Source of the DNA: Planotetraspora phitsanulokensis
GTDB lineage: Bacteria; Actinomycetota; Actinomycetes; Streptosporangiales; Streptosporangiaceae
Direction of reading: 5' to 3'
NCBI RefSeq assembly: GCF_016863295.1
Contig: NZ_BOOP01000011.1
Location: forward strand, 186,001 to 250,000
Length of the DNA: 64,000 nucleotides
The notes under the pieces are model-generated. The model did no database searches. It was not told where the DNA came from and saw nothing but the letters and a program-made list of their open reading frames with translations. This document shows, one piece after another, positions 21,395-29,341 of the stretch; position 1 is the stretch's first letter; the number at the start of each line of letters is the position of its first letter. Both the position numbers and the translations under genes were made by a program.

Positions 21395-22308
21395 GTCGCG
21401 CGCCCTCCCGGCTCCAGCCCTCGGCTTCCGCGAATACGCGGCTCCCGAGCACCCGATCCCCGACCCTGCCCACGAACACCCGGTTCCCGGGTGCCAGGCC
21501 CCCGACTACCCGCGTTCCAGGTGCCAGGCCCCCGATCGCCCGGCACCCGTTCCTGCGCTCGCCCTCGCCCTCGTTCTCGCCCTCGTTCACGCCCTCGTGG
21601 GGACCGTCCCTGTGCTCGCGCGACAAGGCGACCGGTCCACCAGACGCCTGTCGCATCGAGCGCGAGGCCCAGAACCAGGCAGCCGACTCCTGCCGGGCTG
21701 CCGAGGAGGAACGACACGGGACTCATTCCGAGGCCGGCCGCCATGAGCAATCCCAGCAGGGGAAGGCCCGCCAGCATGCGGGCGGTCGCCCGCGGACCCG
21801 CCAACTGCGCGGTCACGTCCTGCCGATGCGACTCCGCGGCGCGCAGCGACATCGCCAAGCGCTCGACGAGCGCCATGAGATCGCCACCCGCGCTCGCGCT
21901 CACACGCCAGCAGGCGGCGAGCCGCAGGAGACCCTCCCCGCCCGGCACGGATGCGGCTCCGGTGAGGGCAGCCGGAACGTCGCCCCCGTCACGCGCCGCG
22001 GCGGCCACCGGCAACAGGGCGGCCGCGTCGGACACGGTCACGGCGGCGACCGCCCTCACCAGGGCCTCACCCGCCTGTTTTCCCGCGGCCAGCTCGGCGG
22101 CCACGGCCTCGCACAGCTCGATGCACGCCGCCCGCCAGGCCGCCTCCTCTGCCATCGGACGCCGGCGGTCGACCAGCGCCTTCCACACACGACGGCCCGG
22201 TCTCGGTTCACGCACACCGATGACCGCGGCCAGCCTGGCCTCCGGCACGCTCGGCCCTGTGCTCACCCAGGCGGCGAGCACGGCAGCCAGTACGGCTACG
22301 ACGGCCAC
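21391..22308 (-). CDS. tadB: Type II secretion system F domain protein, TadB-like, with repetitive C-terminal tail
   Basis: About 305 aa. N-terminal membrane helix, then the T2SSF domain (AVAAELAAGKQAGEALVRAV, then SAGGDLMALVERLAMSLRAAE, then AQLAGPRATARMLAGLPLLG) and a final hydrophobic stretch to about residue 235. The last 70 residues are an unusual low-complexity tail of Arg/Gly/Glu/Pro repeats (GRERGRERGRGR, RGPGT). GTG 22308 has GGAG five bases upstream; TTG 22323 is an alternative. Its start lies inside the 3' end of tadA, so translation is coupled. Confidence 0.85.
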   Translation of the reverse strand: MAVVAVLAAVLAAWVSTGPSVPEARLAAVIGVREPRPGRRVWKALVDRRRPMAEEAAWRAACIELCEAVAAELAAGKQAGEALVRAVAAVTVSDAAALLPVAAAARDGGDVPAALTGAASVPGGEGLLRLAACWRVSASAGGDLMALVERLAMSLRAAESHRQDVTAQLAGPRATARMLAGLPLLGLLMAAGLGMSPVSFLLGSPAGVGCLVLGLALDATGVWWTGRLVARAQGRSPRGRERGRERGRGRAQERVPGDRGPGTWNAGSRGPGTREPGVRGQGRGSGAREPRIRGSRGLEPGGRAT

Positions 22309-23462
22309 GGGAGCTCCGGACAACGCCGGCGCAGCGCGTCCAGGGACGGGCCGGGGGCGACCCGGCCGTCGCCCCCGAACGTCAGAGCGGGCACGGCGAC
22401 CACCAGCCCGGAGTCCTGACGTTCGAGCAGGCAGACCTCCGCCACCCTGCGGCGGCCCCCGCCGGGATCGCGAACGAGATGGACGACGATGTCGAGAGCG
22501 GCCGCGATCTGACTGTGCACGGCCTCACGGGAGAGACGGGCCGCGCACGCGAGCGCTTCCAGCCGGGCGGGGACATCCGTCGCCCTGTTGGCGTGGAGTG
22601 TGCCGCAACCGCCCTCGTGACCGGTGTTGAGAGCGGCCAGGAGATCGACTACTTCGGATCCGCGAACCTCTCCCACGACCAGACGGTCGGGCCGCATGCG
22701 AAGGGCCTGCCGTACCAGATCGCGAAGACCGACACCCCCGGCGCCTTCGAGGTTGGGCGGCCGGGCCTCGAGCCGCACGACGTGCGGATGGTGGGGCCGC
22801 AGCTCAGCGGAGTCCTCGACGAGGATCAGCCTCTCTCCCGGGTCGGCGAGGGAGAGCAGGCTCGACAGCAGCGTCGTCTTCCCGGTGCCGGTGCCGCCCG
22901 TGATGAGGAACGCCTGCCGTGCCGCCACGACCGCCCGCAACACCGCCGCCCCCGCCCCCGTGACGAGTTCCTCGATAGTGAAGACGCGGCGTGAGGGCAG
23001 GCGGAGCGACAGGCAGGTGCCGTCGGGCGCGATGGGCGGCAACACCGCGTGCAGGCGCACCCCGCCTGCCAGTCGCGCGTCCACGTAGGGGCAGGCGTCG
23101 TCGAGCCTCCGACCGGCAGCGGCCGCGAGACGCTGGGCCAGCCGCCGGACCTCCTCATCGCCGGGAAAGGTGACCGCCGTGCGGCGCAACCCGAGGCCGT
23201 CGTCGACCCACACCTCGCGCGGCCCGTTGACCAGGACGTCTGTCACGCCCGGCTCGGACAACAGGCTCTCGAGAGGGCCTGCGCCGATGAGCTCCGCCTT
23301 CAGGACGCGGGCGATCGCAAGGACCTCCGCGTCTCCCAGGACCGCGCGCTCGGCCCGCAGGGCGGCGGCCACCTGCGCCGCGGTGGGCGGGACGCCCGCT
23401 CGCGACAGCCGTACTCTGACGGCCTCCGCCAGCTCCGCCGGAACGGCGTTCACCGTGGTCAC
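22296..23462 (-). CDS. tadA: TadA/CpaF-type secretion ATPase
   Basis: 388 aa ATPase that powers Flp pilus assembly (Rv3659c equivalent). Walker A is GGTGTGKTTLLSSL, the Asp box ILVEDSAELRP, Walker B with RPDRLVVGEVRGSEVVD, and the His box GHEGGCGTLHAN. The N-terminal domain includes GVTDVLVNGPREVWVD. The GTG at 23462 overlaps the ssd stop by four bases (GTGA). The enzyme itself looks intact even though the preceding ssd gene is broken. Confidence 0.93.
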   Translation of the reverse strand: MTTVNAVPAELAEAVRVRLSRAGVPPTAAQVAAALRAERAVLGDAEVLAIARVLKAELIGAGPLESLLSEPGVTDVLVNGPREVWVDDGLGLRRTAVTFPGDEEVRRLAQRLAAAAGRRLDDACPYVDARLAGGVRLHAVLPPIAPDGTCLSLRLPSRRVFTIEELVTGAGAAVLRAVVAARQAFLITGGTGTGKTTLLSSLLSLADPGERLILVEDSAELRPHHPHVVRLEARPPNLEGAGGVGLRDLVRQALRMRPDRLVVGEVRGSEVVDLLAALNTGHEGGCGTLHANRATDVPARLEALACAARLSREAVHSQIAAALDIVVHLVRDPGGGRRRVAEVCLLERQDSGLVVAVPALTFGGDGRVAPGPSLDALRRRCPELPWPS

Positions 23463-24027
23463 GAGGTGAGGCCCGACAGCAGATCGGAACAGAACCGGCC
23501 GAGCGGTGATCGGCCGAGCGGAGGCGGATCGCCGCGATCCAGCGTCTCGACGAGGCCGCGCGACTCGGGGACGAGCCCCGCGCAGGGAAGGCCCAGGGTC
23601 GCGGCGATGACATCCGGCTCGATGCTCCCCTCCCGGACGACCATCCGCAGGTCGCCGGTGTGACGACGCAGCAGCGCGAGCGTCTGGGCGGCGGCGAGGG
23701 TGCCCCTGACATCCGCCTGGACCACCACCAGCGTCGCCGTCGCCCTGGACAGCGCCTCCGCCGCTCCCTCGCCCACCGCGCGCGGGAGGTCGACGACCAC
23801 CAGGTCGCACCCGCGCCTGGCGGCGTCGAGCACGGCCCGCATCGCCTCTCGTGGAATGTCCGCCGGCTCGCCACGATGCCAGGACAACACCGTGAGCTCC
23901 CCGAACGTCGGCAGCGCGTCCTGAAGCGCGGCGAAGCTGACCCGGCCCTCCCGCCCGACGACGTCCGGCCAGCGGGCTCCGGTCGCCTCCTCCTGGCCGA
24001 GGACGACGTCGATGCCCCCGCCCAGGG
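23459..24027 (-). pseudogene. ssd: 3' fragment of ssd (septum-site/CpaE-TadZ-like ATPase), interrupted by a mobile element
   Basis: Codes for about 189 residues from LGGGIDVVLGQEE through the MinD-like strand CDLVVVDLPRAVGEG to the C terminus SDLLSGLTS. It has no start of its own. Its 5' half lies at 27275-27742 with the same orientation, and the two halves join after DADP without loss of conserved sequence, giving about 345 residues, the normal length. The stop overlaps tadA. Ssd/CpaE-like proteins position the Tad machine or act in septum control (Rv3660c). Confidence 0.9.
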
Positions 24028-24100
24028 CAGTGCTTATGTTCAGGATTTCTGAAGGTCTGTCAACGGGAACTTGGGGACCTGAGAGCTCAATTTGGGCTCG

Positions 24101-25693
24101 TCAGGCCTCGAGTTCGCCTCCAAGTCGGGATGCGGATTCTTCCATGATCCGCCGGGCTGCGGTCGCGTACCGGACGGCAGTGGTGTCGCTCATGCCGAAG
24201 ACGATGGCCAGATGTAGCGGGTCGGCGCCGTTCGCGAGGGCCTCGTCTAGGTGCCGGTCGACCCGGAGTCGCTCCAGGGTCGCTGGCAGGCCCCGGAAAT
24301 GCTTTCCCACCCAGAACAGGCTCACGGGCTGGGTCTCGTGGGCAGTCTGCTGGGTGATGAGCAGATGCGGATTAGCGGTGTTCGGCCAGCGTTGACGTCG
24401 GTAATCCAGGTATTCCTGTATCGCGCGTGCGGTCACGTGATCGAGTGGCCGAGTGTGATCGTTGACAGTCATGCGTCGGTTGGCGAGATCGACATCTTCC
24501 AATGTCAGCAGGCAGATCGCCTTCCTGCGCAGCGCGTGAATAGCGGCGAGGACGAGGATGATCCGGTGAGTCGGTGTGCCTGCTCGTTTGATCGCGAGAT
24601 CGAGCTCGGCCTGGTCGAGTGGCACGCGAGCGCGGTCAAGCGTGCCTCCAGGACGTAGGCGTGCGGCTGGGTTGCGGAAGATCACTTTGCGGCGCTTCAG
24701 GCACCCGAACAGCGAGCGCAAGGCCAGGATGGTGTGCCTACGCGGTGTCCCTGTGAGTGGCTTGATGGACTCGTGGAGGTCATCCTTTGTCACCTCCCGA
24801 AGGTGGTCGTAGCTCTGTGACCAGTGCTCGAGAAGCGGGCGGACGTAGGGCACGGCTGCGTGGATGGTCCGCTCTTGTCGTGGCCGCCGACGGGGCGTTC
24901 CGTGGCGGAGTTCGTTGATCCAGATCAATACGTCGCTGCGGATGCCCGACGCGAGACCAGAGAGTGCGCGATCAAGCCACAGATCGAGCGCTGCGGCCCG
25001 ATCGTCGATCAGCAGTCCAATCTCCTCGAGGACGTCACAGACGCGCTCTACGGGGAGCTGGCGGGCGTGGAGCGGCATGACTTCTGATCGGCGGAGCCGG
25101 CCGAAGCCGGGGTATGACGACATGAGGATGACCAGGCCCCGGCGGGTGCGCTGGGTGACCTCGGCGGACCACCCGCGGGCCTCGCTCAGGCGAGCAGCTA
25201 TCTGGGTGGTGTAGAGCACCCACGGTGCCGTGTACTCCGCGTGTTCCTTGGTGCGAAACCTGGTGAAGTCGCGTGCTGGAGGCTCGAAGAGTTCGAGTTG
25301 TTCGTCTTCGGGGAGTGTGAGCCGTACGGCTGCTGGCTTGGACCGCGGCTGTCCGCGGCGGTTGCCGTGTGGACGCATCACGCTGAGCGCTCGGTCCATG
25401 TTGGCCAGGAACAACTGGTGGTGCCCCGAGAGGGCCTGCAGATACGGCATCAGCGGCGTGTGATAGTCGCCGGCTTCGAGACGGGCCTGGTGGCGACACA
25501 GGCGGCAGTAGCCGCGGTACCGGTCTCCCTTGAAGATCGGAACTGTGCGACCGCATCCGGTGCACTGGCCCATCTCGTGGTTGCTTCGCCAGTTGTGACA
25601 GCCCCCGCACAGGGTCTGCGGGGATGGTCCCCAGCTGTGGCAGTAGGGGCAACTGGTGGGCGGCTTCCGGTTCCGCCAGTCCCGCATGATCAT
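24101..25693 (-). CDS. Tyrosine recombinase with N-terminal double zinc ribbon (TnpB-like)
   Basis: 530 aa. The first 65 residues hold four CxxC pairs (CPYC, CGGC, CTGC, CRLC), enough for two zinc ribbons likely to bind DNA. The catalytic domain is C-terminal: first Arg in HALRRKAICLLTLEDV (about residue 390), then the second box LRVDRHLDEALANGADPLHLAIVFG and a probable nucleophile in TTAVRYATAAR. The ATG overlaps the stop of the XRE gene (ATGA). Length and divergent catalytic boxes fit the large recombinase of Tn554-type elements. Confidence 0.85.
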   Translation of the reverse strand: MIMRDWRNRKPPTSCPYCHSWGPSPQTLCGGCHNWRSNHEMGQCTGCGRTVPIFKGDRYRGYCRLCRHQARLEAGDYHTPLMPYLQALSGHHQLFLANMDRALSVMRPHGNRRGQPRSKPAAVRLTLPEDEQLELFEPPARDFTRFRTKEHAEYTAPWVLYTTQIAARLSEARGWSAEVTQRTRRGLVILMSSYPGFGRLRRSEVMPLHARQLPVERVCDVLEEIGLLIDDRAAALDLWLDRALSGLASGIRSDVLIWINELRHGTPRRRPRQERTIHAAVPYVRPLLEHWSQSYDHLREVTKDDLHESIKPLTGTPRRHTILALRSLFGCLKRRKVIFRNPAARLRPGGTLDRARVPLDQAELDLAIKRAGTPTHRIILVLAAIHALRRKAICLLTLEDVDLANRRMTVNDHTRPLDHVTARAIQEYLDYRRQRWPNTANPHLLITQQTAHETQPVSLFWVGKHFRGLPATLERLRVDRHLDEALANGADPLHLAIVFGMSDTTAVRYATAARRIMEESASRLGGELEA

Positions 25694-26016
25694 CGGGGTG
25701 GCAAAGTGCGGCCACTTCGAGGCCTTGGAGTGACGTCGCTGTCCTGGCCGACGGCCTTGGCCGGGGCGTGAGGAATCGGCTGAGGGAGTTTGTCGGGTTC
25801 TACGACCAGAAGGTCTGAGGGGGTGCAGTTCAGCACGGCGCAGATGACCGCGAGGTCGCTGAGCTTGATGCTGGCCGGCTGGCCCGACCAGAGGTTGGAC
25901 ATCTTGCCGGAGCTGATCTCGAGGCCTCGTTCAGCCAGCATGCGCTGCAGGTGACTGGCCTTCCAGATGTCACGTTGTGCTGCCGCCAGGCGCAAGTTCC
26001 ACTTGATGCCGGTCAT
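25690..26016 (-). CDS. XRE-family helix-turn-helix regulator of the element
   Basis: 108 aa. A Cro/CI-type helix-turn-helix spans about residues 18-75 (HLQRMLAERGLEISSGKMSNLW, then KLSDLAVICAVLNCTPSDLL), followed by a Pro/Arg-rich tail. Overlaps both neighbours by four bases, so the three genes are one translational unit. It probably controls recombinase expression; a 25-base palindrome upstream of the first gene is a candidate operator. Confidence 0.88.
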   Translation of the reverse strand: MTGIKWNLRLAAAQRDIWKASHLQRMLAERGLEISSGKMSNLWSGQPASIKLSDLAVICAVLNCTPSDLLVVEPDKLPQPIPHAPAKAVGQDSDVTPRPRSGRTLPPR

Positions 26017-27113
26017 CGGAAGAGTCCTTCAAGTCGACGTTGGGCGCGTTTGTCGGCGGCCACCCAGGCGTCTTCGACGTGGGTGCGATGTGGGTGTATG
26101 TACCTCATGGTCGTGACCACCCATTGGTGTCCGAGTAGTTCCTGCACGGCCATCAGGTCCATTCCAGTGGTGTAGAGCTGAGACGCGCAGAAGTGGCGCA
26201 GGACGTGCGGGGATAGCCGCCCAGCCCAAGCTGGAAGGTGCCGTTCGACGACTTCCTCGAGGGAGGCGCGTAGCCGGTCATCGCTGATTCGCCTGTTCCC
26301 TCCTGCGGCATTCTTCCGCTCCGAAGGGAACAGGGGTGCGCCGTGCCGGGTGTGATCGTCACCGAAGGCGCCCCAGACGTCCTCGACGTACCACCGCAAG
26401 GATGTGTCGGCGTCGTTGATGAGGGGGACGACGCGTTCTTTGGGGCCGCTGCCATGGGCTCCCTTACCCTTGCGGACATGTAGCTTGCCGAAGCGGCCGA
26501 GCTTCCACTTCACGTCATGGATGTCCAGGTGACGGGTTTCGTTGATGCGTAGTCCAACGTCCGTGATCAGCCTGAGAGCGGTGTAGTTCCGAGCTGAAGT
26601 GGCGAACTTTCGGCAGCTGACGAGATCTTCACGCCAGCCGGCGAAGAGCCGTTCGACCTCCTCGGCAGTGGGTGGGATGCGTATCCGTCCCTGGTGGCCT
26701 CCTCTCGGCCTGTTCATCTCGTCCAGGGGCGACTCGATCGCACGGCCGGTGAGGTTGTACAGCTCAACCTTGTGGCGTAGTTCAAGGTATTCGAAGAAGA
26801 TCGACAGAGTCTGGGCCTTGCCAGAACGGGTGCTCGGGGCGGCCCCGCGGTGGACGGCACCTAAGTAGCGATCGACATCCGCTGGTTCGAGTTCCCATAG
26901 TGGCCGCCCGAACCAGCGCCGGATCTGCTCCAGGTTGGACCCGTCGCGCTGGATAGTGAGGTCCGACAACCCGCTGGAGGCTCGCGCGAGCACGAACCCT
27001 GCGAAAACGTCCGTCTCGAAGTCGGCCAGTTCCTCAGCGGTCGCGGGTACTCGCGACTCTCGGAGATCTCGCACTGCGGCAAGAGCCATGCAGCCATCCA
27101 CCTCCAAGCTCAC
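26013..27113 (-). CDS. Tyrosine-type site-specific recombinase/integrase (TnpA-like)
   Basis: 366 aa. N-terminal core-binding (SAM-like) domain about residues 28-120 (FAGFVLARASSGLSDLTIQRDGSNLEQI). The catalytic domain has Arg in TDVGLRINETRHLDI, the HxxR box SPHVLRHFCASQL, LLGHQ and the nucleophile Tyr in TTMRYIHPH. All catalytic residues are present, so the enzyme looks active. GTG 27113 opens the frame; ATG 27089, about ten bases after GGAGG, is an equally likely start. First gene of the element's operon. Confidence 0.9.
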   Translation of the reverse strand: MSLEVDGCMALAAVRDLRESRVPATAEELADFETDVFAGFVLARASSGLSDLTIQRDGSNLEQIRRWFGRPLWELEPADVDRYLGAVHRGAAPSTRSGKAQTLSIFFEYLELRHKVELYNLTGRAIESPLDEMNRPRGGHQGRIRIPPTAEEVERLFAGWREDLVSCRKFATSARNYTALRLITDVGLRINETRHLDIHDVKWKLGRFGKLHVRKGKGAHGSGPKERVVPLINDADTSLRWYVEDVWGAFGDDHTRHGAPLFPSERKNAAGGNRRISDDRLRASLEEVVERHLPAWAGRLSPHVLRHFCASQLYTTGMDLMAVQELLGHQWVVTTMRYIHPHRTHVEDAWVAADKRAQRRLEGLFR

Positions 27114-27143
27114 TTGGACAGCAGTCTTCCGCCTGAAGCTATG

Positions 27144-27168
27144 AAAGTCTCAGGAATCATGAGACTTT
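27144..27168. promoter_or_regulatory. Palindromic candidate operator upstream of the recombinase operon
   Basis: Perfect inverted repeat AAAGTCTCA-N7-TGAGACTTT, 30 bases upstream of the GTG at 27113, in an AT-richer stretch. Its position and symmetry suit binding by the element's XRE regulator. Confidence 0.5.
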
Positions 27169-27274
27169 AGCAAACCGTTGAGAAGCAAGGGGATGGCTTC
27201 ATCAACTGAGGTCAGAGGTAGTGAAGGGGTTAGGTAGGGCGAGGGCCTTCAGGCGAACTCAAGGGAGATGTAAC

Positions 27275-27742
27275 TGGGTCGGCGTCGACGAGCAACGTCC
27301 TCGCTCCCGTCCGGGAGGACGTGAGGGCCAGCGAGGCCGACAGGACCGTGGCCCCCGCGCCTCCGCTGCCGCCCACGACGCACAACACGGTGCCCGACCT
27401 GGTCACCGGGTCGGCGAGCTCCCCCAGTTCCTCGACGAGAAGCCGCTCCTCCTGAGGCAGTTCGAGCACCGCCTGCGCCCCCACGGCCACACATCTGCGC
27501 CACATGTCCGGGTCGTCGTGGACCCGGGTCACGAGCAGGACGTTCTGTCGTGGCGGCGGCGCGACCGCGGCCAGAGCGTCGGCGAGGTCACCTCCGACGA
27601 CCACGAGCGGAGCCTGGGTCCAGTACGGCCGGGCGTGGCCCGCCGCATGGGCGACGTCCATCTCCACTCCGGCGGCCGCGGCGACGCGCAGCAGATCGTC
27701 GAGCAGTTCCTGGTCGTCGGTGATGGCCAAGGGCCGGTGCAT
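27275..27742 (-). pseudogene. ssd: 5' fragment of ssd, interrupted by the mobile element
   Basis: 156 native residues from MHRPLAITDDQELL to the strand TLLVDADP; 14 foreign residues then follow to a stop at 27230. Features include a receiver-like N-terminal domain and a degenerate deviant Walker A, CVVGGSGGAGATVLSASLA. The ATG at 27742 has a GGGAG ribosome-binding site. The remainder is at 23459-24027. A truncated N-terminal protein of 170 residues could still be made, but it would lack the rest of the ATPase fold. Confidence 0.9.
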
Positions 27743-28564: not shown

Positions 28565-29341
28565 TCAGCGCGACAATGCCTCGCAGACTGCGGTGGTCTC
28601 GCGGGCTCCCAGGACCGTGGCCTCGGCGCAGTGCCGCACCCACGTCCCCACGCCGTCGGCGGTGCCCGTGAGATAGGCCCGCAGGCTCTCGCCGTACGCG
28701 TCGCCGAGGTCGGCGTGGCCCACCTCGACGGCCACGAGCGACTTGGGGTCGAGCCCGTGCTCCACGAGCGTCAGCCGCGCGGCCGCTCTGGCGACCACAC
28801 CGTCCACCACTCCGAACGGCCGGAGCACGACCAATTCGGCGTGCACGATCGCCGACAGGACGAGCGCCGGCGCCTGCGAGGCGGCCGAGACCAGCTCCGC
28901 CAGCGCGCTCATCCGCGCCGCGGTCTCCTCGGGACCCGGCGCGGCGCCGATTCCGAGCGGGTCGGCGGAGGTCGGCGCAATCCTCGGCCGGCCGGGATCC
29001 GCGGTCAGACCGGTCGCCGCGAGAGTGTGCAGCCGGGCGAGGACCTGAGGAGGGGCGGACCGCCACGTCTTGCCGAGCCGTCCGAGCTCGGCGGAGGCCC
29101 GCAGCGCGCCCTGCACGACGGGGTCGGCGACCTCGCCCCGCCGGAGCGGGTCCAGCTCCACCTCGACGCCTTCCAGCGACGCGGAGGCCCGAGCGCCGCG
29201 GAGCGCGGACTCCGCCGACACCTCGGGGCTCCTGCGACGGAGCAGCCGGTGTCCGTAGAGGCGGTCGACCGCCTCCCGAGCCTCCTGGACGGCCTGGGGC
29301 ACGCCGGGCAGCTCGGCGATGGCGGCCAATGGGTCCTTCAC
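28565..29341 (-). CDS. Fic-fold protein with degenerate active-site motif
   Basis: 258 aa, helical. The region AELVVLRPFGVVDGVVARAAARL corresponds to the Fic loop HPFxxGNGRxxR, but His is replaced by Arg and GNGR by DGVV; an upstream AS(A)SLEGVEVE segment resembles the family's inhibitory helix area. Fic enzymes AMPylate target proteins and need that His, so this copy should not be catalytic in the usual way. Soluble, no signal peptide. The GTG start is uncertain because no clear ribosome-binding site precedes it. The gene lies between the ssd/6C region and acs in the conserved block; I know of no function. Confidence 0.7.
   Translation of the reverse strand: MKDPLAAIAELPGVPQAVQEAREAVDRLYGHRLLRRRSPEVSAESALRGARASASLEGVEVELDPLRRGEVADPVVQGALRASAELGRLGKTWRSAPPQVLARLHTLAATGLTADPGRPRIAPTSADPLGIGAAPGPEETAARMSALAELVSAASQAPALVLSAIVHAELVVLRPFGVVDGVVARAAARLTLVEHGLDPKSLVAVEVGHADLGDAYGESLRAYLTGTADGVGTWVRHCAEATVLGARETTAVCEALSR

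Follow-up and report, generated by a model that had tools for sequence, protein, structure and literature searches.

A tad pilus operon of the soil-type actinomycete Planotetraspora phitsanulokensis begins with a gene, ssd, that is cut in two by a recombinase-bearing element of 3,249 bp. The operon lies in the window analyzed here, a 64,000-nt stretch of contig NZ_BOOP01000011.1 (GCF_016863295.1, positions 186,001-250,000). We consider it quite probable that a Tn554-like 3.25-kb transposon inserted into ssd recently, after the split from the other species of the genus, and probably inactivated the gene. A sequence-only reading of this DNA had proposed that ssd, the first tad gene, is cleanly split by a recombinase element of about 3.25 kb. 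Comparison with four further genomes of the genus (G001, G002, G003, and G004; congeners below) confirmed this. The event is ordinary; the transposon type is widespread but little described, and we regard the case as somewhat interesting.

ssd Is Split at a Single Codon

27275..27742, minus strand: N-terminal half of ssd, 156 amino acids (aa) through DADP; TIGR03815 positions 1-150, 164.5 bits
23459..24025, minus strand: C-terminal half of ssd, 188 aa plus stop; TIGR03815 positions 151-339, 177.7 bits
24027..27275, minus strand: inserted element, 3,249 bp, edges uncertain by one base; defined by empty-site comparison with the congeners

The ssd gene encodes a CpaE/TadZ-like member of TIGR03815 and is the first gene of the tad operon on the minus strand, with a T2SSE gene, two T2SSF genes, and a DUF4244 gene downstream. 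Each half by itself scores above the family cut-off (154.45 bits), and the cut falls between model positions 150 and 151. The halves had been predicted to measure 156 and about 189 residues, to join between DADP and LGGG without loss, and to add up to a full Ssd/CpaE protein; the lengths and model positions listed above agree with this. The cut lies inside the Pro codon of this junction. Because the first element base (A) completes that codon on the left side, the edge of the element is ambiguous by one base. A match of the C-terminal half to adh_short_C2 (0.0029) was below the Pfam cut-off and was set aside.

In G002 the two halves align to 1734-2201 and 2202-2765 of the compared stretch, i.e. 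contiguously, and G001, G003, and G004 show the same contiguity at this codon. The halves thus abut end to end in all four congeners, with no gap or overlap. Congener ssd is one open frame covering TIGR03815 model positions 1-340 in each case, so the split is more than a chance pattern of open reading frames. Relatives carrying the same two separate frames, which the sequence-only reading had named as counter-evidence, were not seen among the four. Across the 60 genomes searched, P. phitsanulokensis included, the TIGR03815 cut-off was passed in 49; G044 and G059, besides P. phitsanulokensis itself, had nothing but partial best matches. Apart from the two ssd halves, no TIGR03815 match above the cut-off was found in the P. 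phitsanulokensis genome (28 of 74 candidates scored). In the four congeners, the element recombinase had no close relative (best E 6e-11 to 5e-9; 0/4 at E<=1e-60). By these sequence comparisons, the insertion is exact and absent from the rest of the genus as sampled.

An assembly artefact, in which unrelated sequence was joined into ssd, has an almost negligible probability. The assembly is a draft of 95 contigs, but the ends of the element resemble those of related elements. Because the element is present in a single copy, well within a contig that is at least 250 kb long, there is no repeat that could have caused a misjoin.

The Element and Its Three Genes

26013..27113, minus strand: tnpA-like tyrosine recombinase gene, 366 aa; Pfam Phage_integrase 3.4e-23
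25690..26016, minus strand: helix-turn-helix (HTH) gene, Cro/C1-type DNA-binding protein, 108 aa, overlapping the tnpA stop; Pfam HTH_26 1.2e-12
24101..25693, minus strand: tnpB-like gene, 530 aa, overlapping the HTH stop; N-terminal zinc-ribbon cysteines and a partial tyrosine-recombinase domain
27255..27275, minus strand: left end of the element, with the layout AGT/TAA/TGT...GAGTTC as in related elements
24027..24060, minus strand: right end of the element, CTTCAG...GAAC + 11 nt, resembling the right end of locus L035 and others

The three genes of the cassette are co-oriented with the tad genes, and each overlaps its neighbor by a few bases. Relatives were collected by a pattern-based scan with one genome per species, which gave 100 stretches encoding TnpA relatives; the best 80 of these were kept. 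Together with 29 more, they form a wider set of 109 loci with 86 distinct TnpA stretches, several of them with little or no flank. The relatives suggest an in-frame ATG at 27089 as the start of tnpA. R189, K217, H303, R306, H329, and Y338 of TnpA are invariant in all 21 hand-chosen sequences that were aligned (our own and 20 relatives, two of them from plasmid records). Since the catalytic residues are complete, TnpA should be catalytic. Homologues of the HTH protein hold the same position in related cassettes.

The Pfam matches of TnpB, Phage_integrase (1.7e-4, residues 375-449 only) and DZR_2 (0.002), are both under the curated cut-offs. It matches a PHROG integrase at 4e-14 and the phage integrase chain 5vfz at 5.1e-9, both in favor of recombinase kinship. 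A profile comparison of TnpB with TnpA gave a probability of 0.4%, over box I only, which by that method speaks against recombinase kinship. In an alignment of 25 sequences (our own and 24 chosen relatives), eight cysteines and R389, R477, R480, and R508 are invariant, and the tyrosine of the RYA motif is replaced by tryptophan in three. Later arginines are conserved; read by eye, boxes II-III lack the histidines expected of the motif.

The ends of related elements were compared as well. Related left ends have the common layout AGT/TAA/TGT...GAGTTC, and the recognisable right ends share CTTCAG...GAAC followed by about 11 nt. A strict right-end pattern was found at 23 places, of which at least L035 and L081 look wrong; it missed the right end of the present element, which a wider pattern found. 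The genome holds a single full-length copy of the element, plus one 25-bp match elsewhere. In 800-bp windows the G+C content of the element is 61-66%, as against 72-75% for the tad genes.

We propose that TnpA would carry out the strand exchange, as its complete catalytic residues suggest. TnpB and the HTH protein may bind the ends or the target and steer the reaction, by analogy with the accessory proteins of Tn554, SEs, and GInts. The transposon would then be a mobility cassette alone, encoding no more than TnpA, the HTH protein, and TnpB, and would have entered ssd without duplicating or deleting target bases.

Junctions and Target Bases

When the left end is set at AGT by the relatives, target bases are neither duplicated nor removed at the ssd insertion, with one base ambiguous. 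Beyond the last element base on the right the sequence is already ssd; the right edge itself was set by comparison with relatives. Phages, integrative and conjugative elements, and intervening elements end in direct repeats. Because the longest common run at the two junctions is 3 nt (shifts up to 6 bases), a direct repeat of this kind is not present. A long terminal inverted repeat of the element was looked for and not found.

A second clean empty site was sought within genera for flanks in G334, G216, G061, and G236, and none was obtained. G061 gave short matches only, and the flank match in G216 ended about 117 bases before the element. The left flanks in G334 and G236 could be matched as far as the element, with no clean right junction. 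The matching right flank in G334 lay about 12.6 kb off, with CGTAT on both sides, and the pairing of these flanks is uncertain because the neighborhood contains further copies of the gene. In L015 (G236), a locus of 14,962 bp, no match was found to the sequence with which the empty relative continues.

The sequence-only reading had set two outcomes side by side, an inactive Tad system or an element that excises precisely and acts as a switch. As a programmed or phase-variable switch, the element would restore ssd in some cells or stages. The exact, in-frame cut and the complete TnpA are compatible with this, the HTH protein could be a directionality factor, and a reversible insertion would likewise leave the ssd halves under unrelaxed selection. 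However, the element is missing from all four congeners, ssd is at the element in none of the 109 related loci (several with little or no flank), and the junctions share no more than 3 nt. In addition, SEs, which are similar elements, are described in PMC10214605 as leaving no empty site, a point stated there to be untested for Tn554. A recent insertion by itself accounts for the unrelaxed halves, and we consider a switch quite unlikely. Of the two outcomes, an insertion with probable loss of Ssd is the one supported, given the intact, element-free congeners and the complete recombinase.

Effect on Ssd and the tad Operon

22296..23462, minus strand: tadA, T2SSE ATPase gene, open; Pfam T2SSE 7e-54; 96.6% identity to G002 over 388 residues
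20657..22323, minus strand: tadB and tadC, genes for T2SSF proteins, open reading frames of 310 and 245 aa; Pfam T2SSF 4.9e-7 and 3.3e-19

The frame of the N-terminal half runs 14 codons into the element and then stops. The C-terminal half lies in a 213-codon open frame in which the first ATG, GTG, or TTG is at 23890, well inside ssd. Because the N-terminal half stops, the C-terminal half has no early start, and no other TIGR03815 match was found among the scored candidates, loss of Ssd function is likely. The protein would be lost or cut down to its N-terminal fragment. Over-expression of mycobacterial Ssd is described as affecting septation (PMC3095998).

The C-terminal half is in frame with tnpB, and one TGA and 25 open codons lie between the two (window 24026-24103). 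We take this shared frame as a coincidence. Read-through of the TGA would give a TnpB-Ssd fusion.

A split yet functional Ssd is a further alternative, in which the N-terminal fragment cooperates with a C-terminal part that is translated on its own, or the fragment suffices alone. The fragment is whole up to the cut and gains only the 14 codons of the element, the C-terminal half shares its frame with tnpB, and no relaxed selection was detected. Against this reading stand the late first start codon of the C-terminal half and the position of the cut, which runs through the nucleotide-binding domain (CbiA match, residues 121-156 of the N-terminal half). We regard a functional split as very improbable.

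As to the operon, the GTG of tadA (23462-23460) overlaps the stop codon TGA of ssd (23461-23459), just as had been noted from the sequence. The tadC product aligns in full to three congeners and the tadB product over 233-280 of 309 residues only; there are no stops in the aligned parts. The proposal of an inactive Tad system holds in part, in that Ssd is likely lost; against it, tadA, tadB, and tadC are open frames. The loss that the sequence supports is that of Ssd. The genes tadA-C have their own starts, and either the tad promoter or the co-oriented operon of the element may still drive their transcription.

Two further features were observed around the operon. The part of tadB that encodes its C terminus (21391 to about 21600, minus strand) codes for a repetitive Gly/Arg/Pro-rich sequence without alignment to the congeners. 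Upstream of the operon, an open reading frame at 28565-29341 (minus strand) has a weak Fic/DOC match (0.0028), which is below the cut-off.

Age of the Insertion and Weighing of the Evidence

Lineage-specific changes in ssd were counted over 342 codons, at codons where G003 and G004, used as the outgroup, agree. The present strain has 18 silent and 4 amino-acid changes, and the G002 branch has 21 and 4. The ratio of nonsynonymous to synonymous substitution rates (dN/dS) relative to G002 is 0.10 for the N-terminal half and 0.14 for the C-terminal half. Relative to the other three congeners it is 0.13-0.23 and 0.14-0.21, and among the four congeners themselves it is 0.09-0.24 and 0.08-0.17, respectively. 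The halves give no clear indication of relaxed selection, the changes being few and the power small. This fits a recent insertion. With no clear sign of decay in the sequence, either the insertion would be recent or ssd would still be in use.

Several points weigh against a recent, inactivating insertion of a Tn554-like transposon as stated at the outset. Mobility is deduced from sequence, and the element is a single copy in its own genome. No TnpA relative in the best 80 of the 100 stretches exceeds 66% identity, hence there is no sibling that shows the target preference of this element. Because no second empty site was obtained, zero duplication describes the ssd insertion and is not a rule for the family. 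The degeneracy of TnpB past box I is a by-eye judgement, and its profile match to TnpA is weak. The C-terminal half has a dN/dS of 0.21 against G003, above the congener range, in a test of low power. Finally, windows immediately upstream of ssd likewise have a G+C content of about 65%, so composition is a hint only.

Because tadA-C are open, the split gene offers a natural experiment on the need for Ssd/TadZ in an actinomycete Tad pilus.

Related Elements

The order recombinase-HTH-TnpB, on one strand and within the distance limit, is present in 66 of the 80 related loci. The TnpA family was found in 46 of 345 genomes of the order, our own included (E<=1e-60). Three contigs, L060, L008, and L039 (3,251, 3,267, and 3,277 bp), each extend between related left and right ends and match the present element in length; these look like collapsed multi-copy elements of short-read assemblies. 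L020 and L021 are two copies at separate positions of contig NZ_OOHJ01000006.1 that agree in their TnpA stretch and in their element ends, a sign of transposition.

Some relatives carry additional DNA. In L020, L021, L007, L064, and L045 about 430-465 bp, and in L040 nearly 5 kb, lie between tnpA and the HTH gene; this may perhaps be a nested element or an intron. In G334 (C1, about 2858034-2870599; L193, L222) the cassette occupies the left end of a region of about 12.6 kb; in relatives the two flanks of this region adjoin each other, and it is perhaps a cargo-bearing island. To the right of tnpB, on the opposite strand, a DNA methyltransferase-like gene was found in six of the seven loci (of the 80) that were translated, in five genera. 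In these six (L003, L022, L028, L031, L032, and L036) the gene, named by eye, ends in a common motif, and the seventh, L034, looks like a diverged relative. The methyltransferase-like gene was considered as a common target; it may be cargo instead and was not used as evidence.

A more distant relative is present on the Peribacillus frigoritolerans plasmid NZ_CP084540.1 (L153:4590-7732), where the same three-gene cassette comes right after a gene for a 109-aa JAB-domain (RadC-like) protein. Its TnpA is 34% identical to ours. Next to the cassette is another pair of recombinases, 364 and 672 aa long and so of the sizes seen in Tn554.

The element could also be dedicated to ssd, or to the DADPLGG codons, as a site-specific element of this gene family. 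For Tn554, a unique integration site is described (PMC3414803), so that a preferred gene would not be odd, and the Peribacillus relative adjoins a short radC-like gene. Against this, neither ssd half, both of which lie beside the element here, matches any of the 109 related loci (best E 0.27; some with little or no flank). A single ssd insertion was seen, and there is no close sibling. We judge a dedicated element unlikely, and continue to read the insertion as that of a Tn554-like transposon.

A broader proposal is offered tentatively, as rather less than evenly probable. The cassette may represent an undescribed actinobacterial transposon type, in which TnpB would be a former recombinase that has lost its catalytic core and reads the ends or the target. 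It would insert without target duplication and occur as a 3.25-kb unit on its own, perhaps also as one end of larger islands; the stand-alone form would make clean, possibly reversible gene splits like that of ssd. No description of this gene order was found in the titles and abstract openings of the open-licence papers that were searched. The element could serve as a small model for the guidance of target choice by an HTH protein together with a partly degenerate recombinase.

Comparison with Known Systems

Developmental intervening elements, such as the skin element and the nif elements, resemble this one in that a recombinase-bearing element splits a gene exactly in frame. They are kept at one site and have direct repeats at their ends, whereas neither a fixed site nor such repeats were found here.

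RIT elements also have adjacent, overlapping genes and several tyrosine-recombinase-type proteins (as described in PMC3414803 and PMC10214605). They encode three tyrosine recombinases, whereas the present element combines one complete and one partial recombinase with an HTH protein, and a long terminal inverted repeat was not found in it.

SEs and GInts are described as having several recombinases, one of them without the motif, and a small fourth protein. They are similar to the present element in this operon of several recombinase-type proteins, one lacking the full motif, with a small extra protein, and in their target preference. SEs, however, have four genes rather than three and occur mainly in Gammaproteobacteria. 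Their 6-bp donor footprint at the right junction was not seen at the ssd insertion, where the right edge was placed by comparison with relatives. SEs and GInts are also usually larger and carry cargo.

In its make-up the element resembles Tn554 and Tn554-related actinobacterial transposons. Both are small cassettes with one ordinary and one longer tyrosine-recombinase-type protein and a small third protein, both lack target duplication (for this insertion, judged from the four congeners), and both are spread in actinobacteria. Tn554 targets radC, and the Bacillota relative of our element adjoins a radC-like gene; this JAB-domain neighbor is a hint of shared history. The two differ in that the order in Tn554 is tnpA-tnpB-tnpC, while here it is recombinase, HTH, and partial recombinase, with the Cro/C1-type HTH gene in the middle. 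The TnpB of Tn554 is said to hold an RHRY motif. This double RHRY set is not seen here, where TnpA is complete and only box I is recognised in TnpB (boxes II-III by eye). The actinobacterial Tn554-related elements described in 2012 have a short recombinase, a recombinase of 611-828 aa, and often TnpC (PMC3414803), as compared to a TnpB of 530 aa with a zinc ribbon in the present case. TnpA is 27% and 23% identical to the presumed Tn554-type recombinases at L155:8492-9541 and L153:1663-2754, respectively. Because the gene order and the degenerate second recombinase differ, the element is set apart from Tn554 as it has been described, and we call it Tn554-like rather than a member of Tn554.

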